38,956 nucleotides of DNA from Deltaproteobacteria bacterium (lineage in GTDB: Bacteria; Myxococcota_A; UBA9042): the NCBI GenBank assembly GCA_016218865.1, contig JACRCU010000218.1, positions 1-38,956 of the forward strand. Direction: 5' to 3'. Below, piece after piece: positions 24,086 to 30,880 of this stretch. Below the pieces are notes generated by a model. The model worked only from the letters and a program-made list of their open reading frames with translations, was not told where the DNA came from and searched no databases. The first letter of the stretch is position 1. Each line of letters opens with the position of its first letter. The translations under genes and the position numbers were made by a program.

Positions 24086-24597
24086 AGCTCCAGCTCGAAC
24101 GGCTGACGCCGCACCATCCCGTTCATGCCTTCGACTGCGGCACTTCGCCAGCGGGGCACGCCATCGGCGCGTTCTTGCGCGAACAGGCCCTGACCGAGCA
24201 GGCGGCCGGCTGGAGCGCAACCACGGTGGCTGTGGACTTGGATGCCCAGGAAACCAAGAGGCAGCTTGCGGGCTTCTACACGCTTGCCCCGCTGGGCCTG
24301 CGGGCCGACACGGCCGTGCTCGCCGCGTTGGGCTTGGGTGGACGCTACCCGCAGGTGGGCGGCTATCTTCTGGGCCGCCTGGGCGTGGCTGGCCACCTGC
24401 AGCGGCGCGGCCTGGGTGCACTCTTGGTCGAGCGCGCAATCGATGCCGCCAGCCGGGCGCGCACCGTGGGTGGCGGCGCGTTCCTGGCTGTGGATGCCAA
24501 GACCGAGGCACTGGTGGCCTGGTACCTTGGCCTGGACTATGGTTTCTTCCGCCTGTCCCCGGATCGGCCTCGGCTGGTGTTGCGGCTGCCGGGATAG
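24082..24597 (+). CDS. tacT: TacT-like GNAT acetyltransferase toxin
   Basis: A 171-residue GNAT-family protein starting with GTG at 24082, overlapping the antitoxin stop. The family start pattern FDCGTSPAGHAIGAFLREQA corresponds to F-CG...L..FL...A. GFYTLAP matches the strand 4 motif. The acetyl-CoA-binding pyrophosphate loop is LGRLGVAGHLQRRGLGALLVERAI (about 100-123). The end KTEALVAWYLGLDYGFFRL matches FY...GF. Toxins of this type acetylate the amino group of charged tRNA to block translation. Which tRNA cannot be predicted. Confidence 0.87.
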   Translation: MKLQLERLTPHHPVHAFDCGTSPAGHAIGAFLREQALTEQAAGWSATTVAVDLDAQETKRQLAGFYTLAPLGLRADTAVLAALGLGGRYPQVGGYLLGRLGVAGHLQRRGLGALLVERAIDAASRARTVGGGAFLAVDAKTEALVAWYLGLDYGFFRLSPDRPRLVLRLPG

Positions 24598-24697
24598 GTG
24601 CGTGCCCAGGATGGTCGGAACCTCAGGCTTGCCCTGTCGTCAGGCCGGGGCTCGGCACGCGACCCGCCGTAGCGCTTCAAACTACGCAGGATTCTCG

Positions 24698-24726
24698 TTG
24701 ACGTCGAACACGCACAGACCTAGGCT
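24698..24726 (+). promoter_or_regulatory. Predicted sigma70-type promoter
   Basis: TTGACG (24698-24703), 17-bp spacer, TAGGCT (24721-24726). It places transcription start near 24733, suitable for the coding region starting at 24788. This is the main content of the 190-bp gap after the toxin gene. Confidence 0.55.
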
Positions 24727-24787
24727 ACGGCGAGCCATGGCGTGCCGCGGACCAGACGAGAAGCCAATCCCGGACGCGGAGGTCGTG

Positions 24788-26533
24788 TTGGCAAGTCCGG
24801 ATCAGGGGAAGAGGGCGCGCACGACGCTCCAGACTTCGGGGATGGCCCTACTACTCCTCGCCCTACTCTGCGCGCCAGCCCTGGCCGGCGAACGCGGCCC
24901 TGCCAGGTTCGGCCCCTTCGACGCCAGTCGCTCCCACCACGCCGATTCCACGACCGCAGGTGTGGGCCTGAGCATGGTGCGCAACGGTGGAAGGGTGGTT
25001 GTCGACCGCGTCGAACCGGCGGGGCCGGCGGCGGCGGCTGGGATCAAGATCGACGACCAGGTCCTGACCGTGGGCAGGTGGTCCGTCACGGAGGACACGG
25101 ACGTAGAGGCCCTGCAGGCGTCTCTCACCGGGCCAACAGGCAGTTCCCTCCACATCGAGGTCGACCGCTCCGGCCAAGTCCTGCCATTCCAGCTCGCGCG
25201 CAGCCCGCTCGACACCATCTACGCAGGCGAACACCTTGTCAATGTTCAGCTTTGGGCAGGCACCGTGCTCCAGGCCCAGGTTGCGAACGAGTGGTTCGCC
25301 CTGCGGGTTCTGGAGCCCAGGCTGCCTCCCGACCGTCGCGGACGTCTGCAGATGTACAAGACCGGAGCCCTCGACCAGATCCGCTACCAGTGGTGGCGCA
25401 CGCGCTTGCGGGTCGCCATGCGCAGTCCGCATGTCGAAACCGGAATCGCGACGGTGGACAAGGACGCTGCAGAGGTCGAGGTCGGGCCATGGCGAGTCGT
25501 GCTCAAGAGACTGGTGGGGGTGTGGCTGGCGTGCTGGACCAGCCTGCCCGTGCGCCTGGGTGGCCGCGACTGGAGTGAGCAATCGCCGCCCTGGCACGGC
25601 ATGCACTACCTCCGCGCGGACTCTGGAGGATTTCGTTGCGCGAACTCCGTGGAGGAACAACGCCAACAATGGTCGGTTGGTGAGCGCGCCAGTCCGTTCG
25701 CCCAGCCGCGACGAGGACTGCATGGTGCGCGGCCCGTGCGAGTGCGCCTGCTAGGCGACGGCAAGCCGCTATCCAACCAGCGATTCCGCTTCGAACTCGA
25801 CGTGGGCCGGAGGGCTATCTTGCCGGGTCCTACCGCAGTCACCGACGGCAAAGGCGAAGCGCTGGTTCGGCTCCCGGCAGGCACGTACTTCGTGCGGGGT
25901 CTCTTGCCGGCTGATCCTGGGCCCCATCGCGACGTTGCGCTGGCCCAACCCGGCTGGCGCTTGGCAAAGACGGGAGACGCAAGCGCTGCCATCGAGACGG
26001 CAGGTGGGCCAGCGGTGACCGTAGAGCTGGTCCGGGACGCCACAACGGCAGCCGGGCTCGCGGATGACCCGACCGAGTCCGCGCCTCGAAGTGATCGGGG
26101 ACCGCCAGGTGGAATCGAACTTGTCGGCAAGCCGATGCCAGAACTTGAAGTATTGCGTTGGCTTGCACCCCCAATGGCGAGCGGTGTGGCCAAGCCGAGG
26201 CTGTTCGCCGTCTGTATGTTCGCGAGCGAGCGCGCGGACGGCGCCGCGTTCGCCGCACTATGCAGCGAGGTCCAGGCCAGGATAGGGGGCGAAGGGGTCA
26301 CGACGGTACTTGCGAGTCTGGATCGGTCATGGCGGAGCATTCAGTCGACGACGCTGGACTGGGTGCCGGGCCACCCTGCCGTCGCGTGGCTCGGTCCCAA
26401 CGGCAGATCCATCTTCGCGACGCTGCCTGCGGCTGCGCTCGTCCTGATTCGGGGTGACGGGGTGGTTTGCAGCACGGTGGGGGCCGGTGCCAGCGTCGAC
26501 CGCATGCTGGAAGCCGCCCGCCGATGTCTGTAA
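24788..26533 (+). CDS. Exported protein with PDZ domain and redox-inactive thioredoxin-like C-terminus
   Basis: A 581-residue protein. The signal peptide core is MALLLLALLCAPALAGE. A PDZ domain follows (VDRVEPAGPAAAAGIKIDDQVLTVGRWSVTEDTD). A middle region without known family has Trp/Arg-rich stretches and a carboxypeptidase-regulatory-like segment (VTDGKGEALVRLPAGTYFVRGLLP, about 365-390). The C-terminal 130 residues look like a thioredoxin fold (FAVCMFASERADGAAFAALC...LVLIRGDGVVCSTVGAG) but have no CxxC. TTG 24788 is chosen for its GGAGG at 5-bp spacing; ATG 24842 (start of the hydrophobic core) and ATG 24737 are alternatives. Function unknown. Confidence 0.72.
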   Translation: MASPDQGKRARTTLQTSGMALLLLALLCAPALAGERGPARFGPFDASRSHHADSTTAGVGLSMVRNGGRVVVDRVEPAGPAAAAGIKIDDQVLTVGRWSVTEDTDVEALQASLTGPTGSSLHIEVDRSGQVLPFQLARSPLDTIYAGEHLVNVQLWAGTVLQAQVANEWFALRVLEPRLPPDRRGRLQMYKTGALDQIRYQWWRTRLRVAMRSPHVETGIATVDKDAAEVEVGPWRVVLKRLVGVWLACWTSLPVRLGGRDWSEQSPPWHGMHYLRADSGGFRCANSVEEQRQQWSVGERASPFAQPRRGLHGARPVRVRLLGDGKPLSNQRFRFELDVGRRAILPGPTAVTDGKGEALVRLPAGTYFVRGLLPADPGPHRDVALAQPGWRLAKTGDASAAIETAGGPAVTVELVRDATTAAGLADDPTESAPRSDRGPPGGIELVGKPMPELEVLRWLAPPMASGVAKPRLFAVCMFASERADGAAFAALCSEVQARIGGEGVTTVLASLDRSWRSIQSTTLDWVPGHPAVAWLGPNGRSIFATLPAAALVLIRGDGVVCSTVGAGASVDRMLEAARRCL

Positions 26534-26569: not shown

Positions 26570-27718
26570 CTAGTCATCCGCCGCCTGAATCACGGTATTG
26601 ACCGCCTTCTCGAACGCCCCCATGTCCAGGTTGCCGTTGCCGCTGGGCTGGAAGTACATGATCGGCGCGCCGTTTTTGGCAAAGCCGTAGCCGCTGTTGC
26701 GGATCTCGGACCCCTTGAACTTGCTGGCGTGGCCCTCGTTCATCTTGGCCCAGGCGTCGACCTGCGGCACGTCTTGGAACAGCGGAATGGTCTTGATCAC
26801 CTTGGTCAAATCGGCGGGGTTCGACGACTGCTTGTCGGCAATCAGCACCATCACCGTGTCGCTGTGGCCGGTGTTGTTGGCCTGATCCTGCAGCTTTTGC
26901 ATGAGCTGCGCCTGCGAGCGGCACGACGCGCACCAGTCCGAGACCAGCGCCACCACGATCTTCTTGCCCTTGAAGGCATCCAGGCCGTAGGTGGTGTTGT
27001 AGAACGGGCTGCCGGGGTTGATGTCCTGCAGCTTCCAAGCCGGCAGGTCGTGGAAGGTCTTGACGCACTGGGCGTTCTCGTCGCCGGTGCTGGTGATGTC
27101 GCCCTTGAAGGTGAGCTGCGACAGGTCCACGTTGAAGTGGCGGCCCAGGTACTTCATGTTGACGATGCCGCCGAACTGCGGCTGGAGCGTCCGGTTGCGC
27201 AGGATCGCTTTGGCCATGCCGGCTTCGGGCTGCCCCAGGGCTTCGAGTGGCATGCTGCCGGTGGCGCCGACCGAGGTGTAGACCACTTCGCTGCTGCTCG
27301 GTTCCTTGCTGCTCCAGCCCGGGCACAGGGCGAACGAGCTGGTGCCGTCGGCCTTGGTGACCTTGGCGCGCGCCCAGAATTTCACGCTTTTCAGCTGCAG
27401 CCCCTCGCCCTGGAAGCCGGCCTGGTACTCCAGCTCCAGCTTGCAGGTACCGTCGGGCTGGGCGGCGGACACCGTCAGCGCCGGCACACAGGCCAAGCCG
27501 CCGGGATCCTTGTTGATCTGGTGGGTCATCGTCGCGGTGGCCTTCAGGCCCTGGTACGAGACGCTGAAGTCGCCGTTGTCGATGCTGGTGGAAAACGCCC
27601 CGCTGGCGGTGAGCGGCGTGTCGACGGGCGCAACCGTTGTCACTCCCGCGCTGGCACAGCCGCCAAGGGCCGCCACCAGTGCGAGCCACAGAACCCGAAT
27701 CCAGCCCTTGCCAACCAT
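26570..27718 (-). CDS. TlpA-like thioredoxin-domain lipoprotein
   Basis: A 382-residue lipoprotein (LVAALGGC lipobox, Cys about 18) preceded by GGAGG 5-6 bp from the ATG. Residues of about 25-200 form an unrecognised beta-rich domain with scattered Cys (CVPALTV, DGTC, CPGW). The C-terminal 180 residues are a thioredoxin/AhpC-TSA fold with active site DWCASCRSQ and cis-Pro region NGAPIMYFQ. It should act as an extracytoplasmic thiol-disulfide oxidoreductase. It lies 89 bp downstream of the barrel-thioredoxin gene on the same strand, so the two probably work together. The substrate is unknown. Confidence 0.85.
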   Translation of the reverse strand: MVGKGWIRVLWLALVAALGGCASAGVTTVAPVDTPLTASGAFSTSIDNGDFSVSYQGLKATATMTHQINKDPGGLACVPALTVSAAQPDGTCKLELEYQAGFQGEGLQLKSVKFWARAKVTKADGTSSFALCPGWSSKEPSSSEVVYTSVGATGSMPLEALGQPEAGMAKAILRNRTLQPQFGGIVNMKYLGRHFNVDLSQLTFKGDITSTGDENAQCVKTFHDLPAWKLQDINPGSPFYNTTYGLDAFKGKKIVVALVSDWCASCRSQAQLMQKLQDQANNTGHSDTVMVLIADKQSSNPADLTKVIKTIPLFQDVPQVDAWAKMNEGHASKFKGSEIRNSGYGFAKNGAPIMYFQPSGNGNLDMGAFEKAVNTVIQAADD

Positions 27719-27807: not shown

Positions 27808-29172
27808 TCACGGTGCCGTCGCCGTGGCGAGCTCGGGCAAAGCCGCCGCATAATCAAAAGCTTCGGCCCCCACCAACCGCCGCCGCAGGCTGCCGTCGCC
27901 GCCGTAGACATCCACCACGGGCAGGCCCGCCACCGCCGGCAGCAGGCGCTGCATCTGCGCGGCGTCCCAATCGCTCGCGTCCACGCGGACCACCAGCAAC
28001 TCGGGGTGCGCTTTGGCGAATTCCTCCAGCTGCGCCGACAGCTTTTGGCACGGCGCGCACCAGGTCGCCCAGTAGTCCACCAGCGCGACCCGGCCCGGCT
28101 GCAACAGCGCGGCGATCTCGGGCTGCGGCCGATCCCCGGGCTGCGCCGGCTGCGGTTGCGGCTTGGCCGCCTCGCCCAGCGGCTGACTCCAGGACAGGCC
28201 CACGAACACCCAGTAGGCAGGCGGGGTTTGCAGGCCCAGCACGTCGCGCCGCAGCGGCTTGCGTCCCGTCAGGTCCAGGGCAAGCTGGTCGGTCAGCTGG
28301 CCGCGCAGCGAGGCGGTCAGGTCCAGGTACTCGCCGCCCACGCTGGCCGAGTCGACCCGCACGCCCTGCCAGTCCAGTTCGCTCGGCATCTTGCGCTGCA
28401 GCCAGTCCAGGGAGACGCTCGCCTGCACCCGCTTGGGCCACACCTGCCCCGCCAGACCGCCGCTGATCACCGTCTCGCGCTCCCAGCGGAAGCCGTCCTC
28501 GCAGTCGGCCAGCGGCGTGCGGGTGCGCAGGGCGGCAAACCAGCCCAGTTGCTCAAAAAAGCGGCCGTACACCTCGGCGTCGGCCAACAGCCACCACGTG
28601 CCGCGGCCCAGCGACAAAGTCTTGTCCAGCTGCTGACCGGGCTGCAGTTGCGTCACCTGCAGCTTGGAGATGTACGGGCCGGTCGGCGCCGCCATACCGG
28701 CGTTCACCTGCAGCTTGGGCAGCCAGCGAGCGTCCAGGCCCAACAGACGAAAAACGTCGGCGCGCGCCCGCAGTTCCAGGTCGCCGATGCCGAAGTCGTC
28801 GGTGTGGCGGCTGTCCGAGTCGCTGCGGATCCGCCCACTGGGCAGCAGCAGGCCGGCGCCCAGACCGCTCGCGAAGTCGATGCCGGCAGACAACGTAACC
28901 AGCTGCAGCCGAATCGAGAGATGGTCGAAGTTGGTCTTCGCCTGCGTGCCGCCGTAGGGCTGGTCGCCGTAGGCATAGGCGTAGCTGAGCCCAGCGCGCA
29001 CGCGAGTCTGCGGGGCAGCGGCGGCACCGTCAAAGGCGCGCGCCATGTCGGTGTCTCCCACCGGGAGAGCGGGGTTGCCTCAGGCCGAGCACTGCGCCTG
29101 GGCCGGCTGGCTCGCCACGGCCAGCGCCACCAGACTGAGCGCCAGGAGCCCCATGAGCTTGCAAGGTTTCAT
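27808..29172 (-). CDS. Putative selenoprotein: signal peptide, CxxU motif, beta-barrel-like domain and C-terminal thioredoxin
   Basis: Read from ATG 29172, the frame encodes a signal peptide (MKPCKLMGLLALSLVALAV... cleaved near QPAQA|QC) and then Cys28-Ser-Ala-[TGA 31]-Gly-Asn-Pro. After this single TGA (29082-29080) it continues in frame for 423 more codons. The remainder is an outer-membrane-barrel-like domain (repeated amphipathic strands, aromatic and Gly-rich, about 55-330). A Pro/Gln-rich linker follows, then a thioredoxin domain with active site YWATWCAPCQK (CAPC at about 372-375). A CxxU redox motif at the mature N-terminus, plus a hairpin of suitable spacing after the TGA, suggests selenocysteine insertion. 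Otherwise translation would begin at ATG 29046 (GGGAG, 8 bp upstream) or GTG 29061. That would leave an outer-membrane protein with no signal peptide. Homologous Cys versions would settle this. Confidence 0.68.
29054..29068 (-). promoter_or_regulatory. SECIS-like hairpin after the in-frame TGA
   Basis: On the mRNA strand, UCUCCC-GGU-GGGAGA (29068-29054) starts 11 nt after the UGA. The loop GGU lies 17 nt after it, close to the 18-nt spacing between UGA and GGUC in E. coli fdhF. A competing hairpin, CGGTG-GGAGA-CACCG (29063-29049), is also possible. Structure supports, but does not prove, a bacterial SECIS. Confidence 0.5.
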
Positions 29173-29322: not shown

Positions 29323-29916
29323 CTAGCTGGCCGCCGCCAGCTCGCGCAGCGCCTCTACGTCGGCGTACACCTCGGCCACGGTCAGCTCCACCGCGGCCCC
29401 CGTCAGGCGCAGCGTCTCGCCGTCGCCGCAAGCGCGGAAGGTCCAGCTGCCGTCGTCGTTGCGGGCAAAGTGCTCCACCAGGTTGCGGTCCTGGTTGACC
29501 AGCAGGTAGTCGCGCAGGCTGGGCAGGCGGCGGTACAGCTCGAACTTGCCGCCGCGATCGTACATTTCGGTAGTCGGCGACAGGACTTCGACCAGCACGG
29601 CCGGGTTCACCACGCCGTTGGGGTCGCGCGGGTCGGTCTGCAGCGGCCCGCACACCACGCTGGCGTCGGGGTAGCAGGCGTCGCCCAGCAGCGGAATGAC
29701 GATGCGGAGCTCCGAATTGAACGGCCGACAGGGCTTTCCGGCCAGCGCCTGCCGCAAAGCCGCGTAGGCGTTGCCGGCAAGGTGAGCATGGACGATCGAA
29801 CCGCCCGTCATCGCAAAGATTTCGCCGCCGTGGAACTCCAGCTTGACCGGACTGCGGGCGCAGGCGTCCAGGTAGTCGGCGTAGGTGATCGGCAGGACTC
29901 GTGCGGCTTGGGCCAT
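29323..29916 (-). CDS. Uma2-family (DUF820) putative endonuclease
   Basis: A 197-residue protein of the Uma2/DUF820 family, which has a PD-(D/E)xK nuclease fold. Family features: ITYADYLDACARSPVKLEFHGGEIFAMTGGSIVHAHLAGN at the start, PDASVVCG (the PD of the catalytic motif, about 102-103), and PAVLVEVLSPTTEMYDRGGKFELYRRLPSLRDYLLVNQD (E and K completing the site). GAGG precedes the ATG. Biochemical activity is rarely shown for this family. It stands alone. Confidence 0.88.
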   Translation of the reverse strand: MAQAARVLPITYADYLDACARSPVKLEFHGGEIFAMTGGSIVHAHLAGNAYAALRQALAGKPCRPFNSELRIVIPLLGDACYPDASVVCGPLQTDPRDPNGVVNPAVLVEVLSPTTEMYDRGGKFELYRRLPSLRDYLLVNQDRNLVEHFARNDDGSWTFRACGDGETLRLTGAAVELTVAEVYADVEALRELAAAS

Positions 29917-30064
29917 GGGCGCCTCGGGTGGCCGGCGACGGCCGGACCTGCCATGGAGTGTAGGCACGGCGCAAGGTTCCAGCAAGTTGCGGCGGCGCTT
30001 GCCCCCGGCCCGCGGCTGCCCCATCATCGGCCGGCGCGCAGCCCACTGCCGCGACCCCACGGCC

Positions 30065-30880
30065 ATGACCGACCCCACGCAACTGCAGACTCACACCCAC
30101 GTTTTTGGCGGGCGCCCCACCCAGATGCTCCAGCTCGGCCAGGGTCCGGTGGCCGTGCTGATCCACGGCTCGGCCGACAAACCGACCACCTGGCTGCCGG
30201 TCATGCAGGCGCTGGCCGGCCAGTTCCAGTTGCTGGCGCCGGGCTTGCCACCGATCGCAGTGGAGGAACCCGCGGGCGGTAGGCGGGCCCTGGACCTGGA
30301 CCTGCCTTGGCTCGACGAGGTGCTGACCCTTTCGGGCGCGCGCATCCTGGCCGCCCACTCGTACGGGGCGCTGCTGGCGCTGCGCTGGGCGCTGGCGCAT
30401 CCGGGCCGGCTGGACCGGCTGGTGCTCATCGAACCGATCTGCTGGGGAATGGTGGCGGGCCACGGCACCGCCGGCCAAAAGCTGGACGAACTCCGCGACT
30501 TGTGCCTGCACGCCTTTGCCCGCGGCGAGGTGGAATCGGCGATGCACTGGCTCGTCGACTACTGGAATGGCCAGGGCTTCTTTGCCCGGCTGCCCGAGCG
30601 GATCCGCGCCGGCTTGGTGACGCACTACGGGCGGACCTGGGCCGAGGTGGCCAGCGGCGGCGGCGACCAAACCAGCGCCGCGGAAGTACGCACGCTGACG
30701 ATGGAAGTGCAGCTGCTGGCCGGCGAGCACACGACCCCAGAGTCGCTGGCCGTCATGCGCGCCCTGGCGGCTGCTCTGCCCCGCGCGCCGTTCCAGGTGC
30801 TGCCGGGCGCCACCCACCAGTGCTTGAAAAGCCACGCGGCGCGGGTCGCGGCAGCGATCGCCGGCACCACGCAACTCTAG
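30065..30880 (+). CDS. Alpha/beta hydrolase
   Basis: A 271-residue alpha/beta-hydrolase-fold protein. The oxyanion motif LIHGSADKPTTW is near residue 33. The nucleophile elbow AHSYGA (Ser about 100) is clear. Candidate acid and His are in the C-terminal third (GEHTTPES and GATHQCLKSH). No signal peptide. It is 18 bp before the enoyl-CoA hydratase gene, so they are likely cotranscribed. ATG 30065 has no strong ribosome-binding site; an upstream start in the frame from 29885 is not supported. Substrate unknown, possibly a thioester or lactone given its partner. Confidence 0.85.
   Translation: MTDPTQLQTHTHVFGGRPTQMLQLGQGPVAVLIHGSADKPTTWLPVMQALAGQFQLLAPGLPPIAVEEPAGGRRALDLDLPWLDEVLTLSGARILAAHSYGALLALRWALAHPGRLDRLVLIEPICWGMVAGHGTAGQKLDELRDLCLHAFARGEVESAMHWLVDYWNGQGFFARLPERIRAGLVTHYGRTWAEVASGGGDQTSAAEVRTLTMEVQLLAGEHTTPESLAVMRALAAALPRAPFQVLPGATHQCLKSHAARVAAAIAGTTQL

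Follow-up and report, generated by a model that had tools for sequence, protein, structure and literature searches.

A conserved, apparently undescribed selenoprotein family of Myxococcota with a CxxU motif ahead of a predicted outer-membrane barrel and a thioredoxin domain

Background

The closest described counterparts of the gene reported here are the bacterial CxxU and UxxC selenoproteins (PMC13188914), which share with it an in-frame UGA, a bacterial SECIS (bSECIS) hairpin, homologues with cysteine, the CxxU motif, and the machinery of SelA, SelB and tRNA-Sec. The published constraints on a bSECIS are a loop of 3-9 nt with G in the first two loop positions, a spacing of 16-37 nt, a stem of 4-16 bp and an energy of -7.5 or below (PMC13188914). 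Selenocysteine (Sec) has also been found in outer-membrane barrel proteins, namely the TonB-dependent receptor FCYXU (NF049945) and GSU2204/MtrB-PioB (NF041027), although these belong to other barrel families. By fold, the nearest relatives are the 12-strand barrels of FapF and the COG4313 channel (PDB 5o65, 5o67 and 4rl8), with which our protein shares a PTG motif; they differ from it in that identity is only 12-15%, FapF has an N-terminal coiled coil in place of CxxU, and the matches stop at the barrel, without a thioredoxin domain. Opening of FapF is controlled by a helical plug that precedes strand 1 directly and is inserted from the periplasmic side; its N-terminus is periplasmic, and PTG motifs are conserved (PMC5557850).

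Here we describe a gene that joins these elements in one reading frame, found in a window of 38,956 nucleotides (by which we mean the whole stretch of DNA analysed, contig JACRCU010000218.1) from a deltaproteobacterial metagenome-assembled genome (MAG) placed in Myxococcota_A. It had been predicted from the letters of the window alone to be a selenoprotein. We examine its homologues, RNA signal, decoding machinery, predicted structure and neighbours, and weigh what the protein might do.

Results

One reading frame with an in-frame TGA

The gene occupies 27808-29172 on the minus strand and carries a signal peptide, an in-frame TGA, a barrel and a thioredoxin domain in a single frame. From the ATG at 29172, 30 codons (MKPCKLMGLLALSLVALAVASQPAQAQCSA) ending in ...AQAQCSA lead to a TGA at 29082-29080, from which 423 codons run to the terminal TGA at 27810-27808, so that reading through codon 31 gives a product of 454 residues. 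Every coordinate of this layout, as originally predicted, was verified. Residues 1-26 (MKPCKLMGLLALSLVALAVASQPAQA; 29095..29172, minus strand) form the signal peptide, with a predicted cleavage between AQA and Q27 that was called by inspection under the AxA rule, without a signal-peptide program. The leader that had been claimed is borne out by the homologues: wherever a homologue extends to the motif, a hydrophobic leader stops just before it, and none starts within the barrel frame. Right after the cleavage site stands the redox motif C28-S-A-U31 (29080..29091, minus strand), in which U31 is the TGA.

The same codon in the homologues, and two other spellings

When about 85,000 species genomes were scanned, 28 homologues emerged, and 27 of them have a TGA at exactly the same codon, which is conservation far beyond chance. 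Their motif consensus is QC[SATV][ATV]U.[NS]P, and in the family alignment Q27, C28 and the Sec/Cys column do not vary at all. Most (26/28) come from records titled as myxococcal or deltaproteobacterial MAGs; the remaining two, L021 and L029, are titled Proteobacteria and cluster among the myxococcal sequences in the tree.

A search of the phylum added more distant homologues and, after duplicates were removed, left 65 distinct myxococcotal genes: 46 with CxxU (CxxTGA), 10 with UxxU (TGAxxTGA) and 9 with CxxC. The prediction had proposed an alignment across the TGA as its own check, and every homologue that reaches the motif has either Sec or Cys at the position of codon 31. The UxxU form, exemplified by TUTAUVNPNLPVGG, was seen in distant relatives (L125-L128, L150-L152, L154, L155 and L158) that are likewise barrel and thioredoxin proteins; their genes have two TGA codons 9 nt apart, followed by a single hairpin. 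In a maximum-likelihood tree the Cys genes make up three clades inside the CxxU genes (minimum number of changes, 3), from which it follows that Sec is the older state and that Cys was derived by three separate Sec-to-Cys losses. This sets the family apart from the bacterial CxxU/UxxC selenoproteins cited above, as here Sec is ancestral and the Cys forms are derived.

Seven further genomes, outside the phylum or distant within it, had no full-length member. Two additional barrel relatives, L129 and L156, match only short of the N-terminal motif, with no stops read, and their host genomes (G346 and G377) are not among the listed SelA-positive genomes.

A hairpin frozen in Sec genes and lost in Cys genes

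The original prediction placed a hairpin with loop GGU behind the TGA at the spacing known for bacterial SECIS elements. The hairpin UCUCCC-GGU-GGGAGA (29054..29068, minus strand) lies 12-26 nt after the UGA and codes for LPVGD; its stem has 6 bp, 11 bases separate UGA from stem and 17 nt separate UGA from loop, and it satisfies all of the published bSECIS constraints (PMC13188914). Folded by themselves, the local 20 nt take up this hairpin as their minimum-energy structure, at -8.3 kcal/mol. This much of the proposed SECIS search succeeded, but when RNAfold was given a 61-nt piece it preferred another fold and did not pick the hairpin (z -1.2), and Rfam has no matching bacterial-SECIS family, so that its scan yielded chance matches only. 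The call of a SECIS therefore rests on comparative evidence.

That evidence begins with silent sites, which are nearly frozen. The bases +13 to +19 after the UGA (CTCCCGG) do not vary across 28 Sec genes, nor do +22, +23 and +25. Leu in the hairpin is written CTC in 28/28, against 27% usage elsewhere in the same genes, and Gly is written GGA in 25/28, against 7%. Where the stem does vary, compensatory changes are seen: in the genes with LPGG after the Sec, pair 11-27 occurs as C-G, A-U and G-C and pair 12-26 as G-C and C-G, and the UxxU type has U-A, C-G and G-C at pair 15-24. In these two types six to seven pairs are formed in 98-100% of cells, while genes of the LPVG type show no variation at the inner pairs and frequently leave the outermost ones unformed. 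The Cys genes have lost the hairpin: only 38% of cells pair, the mean local folding energy is -3.1 kcal/mol as against -8.2 or -10.3 in the Sec types, and LPVG/LPGG is replaced by AFAS, GLNV, AFSA and others. We infer that the amino-acid motif following Sec is in part an imprint of the RNA signal.

Sec machinery in the genome

The source MAG (5.35 Mb, 82% complete) was searched for selA, selB, selC and selD, and the first three of these were found. The tRNA-Sec scores 73.3 bits against a cut-off of 47 and is also called by ARAGORN (SeC, tca); SelA matches at E 1e-123; SelB is a full-length frame of 658 aa (E 1.4e-68) with a second match in its C-terminal part, the matched parts scoring 232.5 and 20.2 bits, the first slightly below the cut-off of 242. 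SelD was the exception, with no match above cut-off in this incomplete MAG. A weak TIGR00476 match in an 803-aa frame was set aside, because that length points to some other AIRS-family protein, such as PurL. SelD is present in all five congeners and in 20/22 genomes of the same taxonomic family, so we read its absence as an assembly gap. In three genomes of that family (L160-L162) SelD itself has one in-frame TGA; a SelD with Sec is a known form.

Across the phylum, SelA occurs in 34/34 genomes with UGA forms of the gene, compared with 250/379 genomes overall (Fisher p 4.5e-7). These 34 genomes are not independent, since most come from one family, and the SelA of one of them (G186) is a weak partial match.

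Taken together, the TGA/Cys conservation, the frozen and compensating hairpin that is lost in Cys genes, and the Sec machinery make it nearly certain, in our judgement, that SelB and tRNA-Sec, directed by a bSECIS hairpin, insert selenocysteine at the UGA of codon 31. All that speaks against it is the lack of any protein sequencing and of a selD gene in this MAG. The prediction had held that it would fall if the genome had no Sec machinery, if homologues had no Cys or Sec at this position, or if they began at the downstream Met without a leader; all three were checked, and none held.

One might still suppose that the TGA simply terminates a short peptide and that the barrel is a gene of its own, or else that the TGA is a sequencing error or the mark of a decaying gene, since the standard code reads TGA as stop and possible starts follow closely 3' of it (ATG at 29046, GTG at 29061). 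The 423-codon downstream frame, however, has no signal peptide of its own, the same TGA recurs across dozens of assemblies of independent origin (29-75% identity), and the hairpin is frozen while sister proteins have Cys, which leaves these readings scarcely any room. Two-gene organisation, gene decay and a changed code were all rejected. That UGA is read as some other amino acid, by Trp suppression or a changed code, is just as far-fetched, as only the open frame speaks for it, while non-TGA homologues always have Cys at the aligned position, the genome has the high-scoring tRNA-Sec, and the gene and many homologues end in TGA, so the codon has not simply been reassigned.

A predicted 12-strand barrel fused to a thioredoxin domain

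The original prediction also described an outer-membrane barrel joined to a thioredoxin with a second redox site, CAPC, at its C-terminus, and the modelled structure agrees. The AlphaFold model made from the family alignment (mean pLDDT 85.5, pTM 0.70) shows twelve long strands followed by a thioredoxin fold. The barrel, residues 56-332 (28177..29007, minus strand), is FapF/COG4313-like and has pLDDT mostly above 90; its best Foldseek matches are FapF (5o67/5o65) and the COG4313 channel 4rl8, with E down to 1.8e-13 and TM-scores of 0.70-0.79 (target). A PT(G) motif is nearly invariant in the family alignment. The Pfam family PF13557 matches weakly, in 5/29 members at E up to 0.1 (best 0.0015), and does not match the window protein. 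On this modelled fold the barrel is very probably an outer-membrane channel, its channel activity being inferred.

In front of the barrel, residues 17-36, which include CxxU, have pLDDT below 50 and appear as a flexible segment, and a short helix is predicted at 42-48, just before strand 1 and 11 residues past the Sec. Behind it, the thioredoxin domain (about residues 348-444; 27841..28131, minus strand) matches PF00085 at E 9e-10 (38.9 bits, gathering score 23.5) and is found in 29/29 aligned members; a family profile matches solved thioredoxins at E down to 2e-14, and pLDDT is about 90-96 over most residues. Its site C372-A-P-C375 (28048..28059, minus strand) lies within VDYWATWCAPC, and VDYWATWCxPC is unvaried in 29 members. 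In the UxxU group most barrels are likewise followed by a thioredoxin site of the form CxxC.

Neighbouring thioredoxin-fold genes and a second copy

Downstream lies a gene for a secreted lipoprotein (26573..27718, minus strand; probable start ATG 27718) with a lipobox LGGC and a C-terminal redoxin whose active site is W-CASC-R. It matches NF053656 (redoxin_TUGYCR, 'TUGYCR motif thioredoxin fold (seleno)protein') at E 9.4e-10, and the Sec forms share U-x-x-C-R with that family; its 38.6 bits, however, fall below the cut-off of 100, so it is a relative and not a member. In another clade, orthologues at 12 loci (L031, L032, L036-L040, L042, L043, L045, L046 and L117) have a TGA at the first Cys, giving GFUxxCRSQ, and their own hairpin after it, at -9.8 to -12.2 kcal/mol. 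At each of these loci (L039:7289-7840, for example) it stands in tandem with the barrel gene as a second selenoprotein and is the Sec form of our downstream gene.

The window genome holds a second family member, L100 (G000:C272:1792-2760, minus strand), with a TGA, a hairpin and the sequence CATUTNPSLPVGD; in the further clade that includes it, a TlpA/redoxin-like Cys protein lies upstream rather than downstream. A thioredoxin-fold gene with a Cys or Sec site thus stands beside most members, upstream or downstream, with none seen at, for example, L021 and L035. In the few neighbourhoods inspected, no common gene beyond it hinted at a substrate. The original prediction had anticipated neither this second selenoprotein in another clade nor the paralogue L100, the UxxU sister group or the ancestral use of selenium in the family.

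Other neighbours in the window are a 763-aa frame with a PDZ domain (24242-26533, plus strand), convergent with the redoxin lipoprotein gene and with a C-terminus that by eye resembles a degenerate redoxin, and a gene of the Uma2 family (putative restriction endonuclease fold; 29323-30078, minus strand) about 150 bp upstream on the same strand. Elsewhere, a 1094-aa protein with five matches to Cys-rich repeats of the Dicty_CTDC type lies directly downstream of the barrel selenoprotein in one relative (L030:7377-10661, plus strand).

Discussion

What the protein does can only be inferred. We think it probable that it is a single exported selenoprotein serving as a redox relay at an outer-membrane channel, and we lean, with somewhat less assurance, towards a relay running between the thioredoxin domain and CxxU. 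On the computational evidence the mature protein begins Q-C-S-A-U; a flexible segment and a short helix then lead to the 12-strand channel, and the thioredoxin domain closes the chain. Since the number of strands is even, both termini are inferred to be periplasmic, and CxxU and the thioredoxin CAPC should therefore be able to meet. The CAPC would reduce the Cys-Sec bond of the N-terminal motif (Sec-Sec in sister proteins), the neighbouring redoxin lipoprotein would perhaps re-reduce the thioredoxin domain, and a selenol of low pKa at the periplasmic mouth of the channel would act on a passing substrate or on a plug segment. In support, the thioredoxin CxxC is kept together with CxxU or UxxU, and most members have a neighbouring thioredoxin-fold gene. 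The low confidence over residues 17-36 is the reason that no contact between CxxU and thioredoxin was modelled, and our searches turned up no characterised redox channel of the outer membrane with a comparable sequence.

A different possibility, which we regard as tentative at best, is that CxxU is a switch and not a catalyst: the segment before strand 1 would plug the pore, and its own thioredoxin domain, by driving formation or reduction of the Cys-Sec or Sec-Sec bond, would close or open it for export or uptake, making a channel gated or powered by selenium chemistry. That the best structural match is FapF, with its plug just before strand 1, and that a short helix occupies the same place here, 11 residues after the Sec, are both in keeping with such gating. 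Yet the CxxU stretch is not reliably modelled, the long periplasmic coiled coil of FapF is missing, and Cys-only switches are common, so that the strong retention of Sec favours catalysis. If gating were nevertheless correct, the redox state of the periplasm would control what passes the outer membrane, or how electrons flow across it.

More doubtful still is a role in handling metals or metalloids, in which the Cys-Sec or Sec-Sec pair at the pore mouth would bind or reduce soft ions in passage (selenium, arsenic, mercury or copper, for example) with electrons given by the thioredoxin. Channels of the COG4313 type are thought to be uptake channels, which counts in its favour. So does the presence of CxxU and UxxU in metal-binding selenoproteins of the published inventory (PMC13188914). 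The only steady neighbour, however, is a thioredoxin-fold protein, and no metal-resistance or metal-transport gene recurs in that way.

Returning to the family as a whole, which the original prediction took to be non-standard, the inventory of 119 prokaryotic selenoprotein families of 2026 (PMC13188914) contains no N-terminal CxxU or UxxU on a thioredoxin-fused outer-membrane channel. In NCBIfam 20.0 (June 2026) only generic thioredoxin-type models match, and none covers the N-terminus or the barrel; searched by HMM, the window protein has no match to NF049945 or NF041027 at E up to 1. Because other barrel families of the outer membrane are already known to include selenoproteins, we regard the family and its architecture as new, but the kind of protein as known. 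It is a conserved selenoprotein family that is apparently undescribed, although an earlier mention elsewhere in the literature is not excluded.

Standard annotation cuts such genes at the UGA. Signal peptide and redox motif are then lost from view, and the database entry would be a barrel-thioredoxin protein that has no export signal. The genes described here add a family of exported selenoproteins, with Sec as the ancestral state, from a phylum, Myxococcota, that goes unmentioned in the review consulted. The three parallel Sec-to-Cys losses, which free codons otherwise bound by the SECIS, amount to a clean natural experiment on the limits that an RNA signal sets to a protein sequence, LPVG/LPGG being retained for as long as Sec is retained. 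The UxxU group is a test case for double Sec decoding before one hairpin. In functional terms the family points to redox chemistry of the thiol/selenol type at a pore of the outer membrane, a function that remains inferred.
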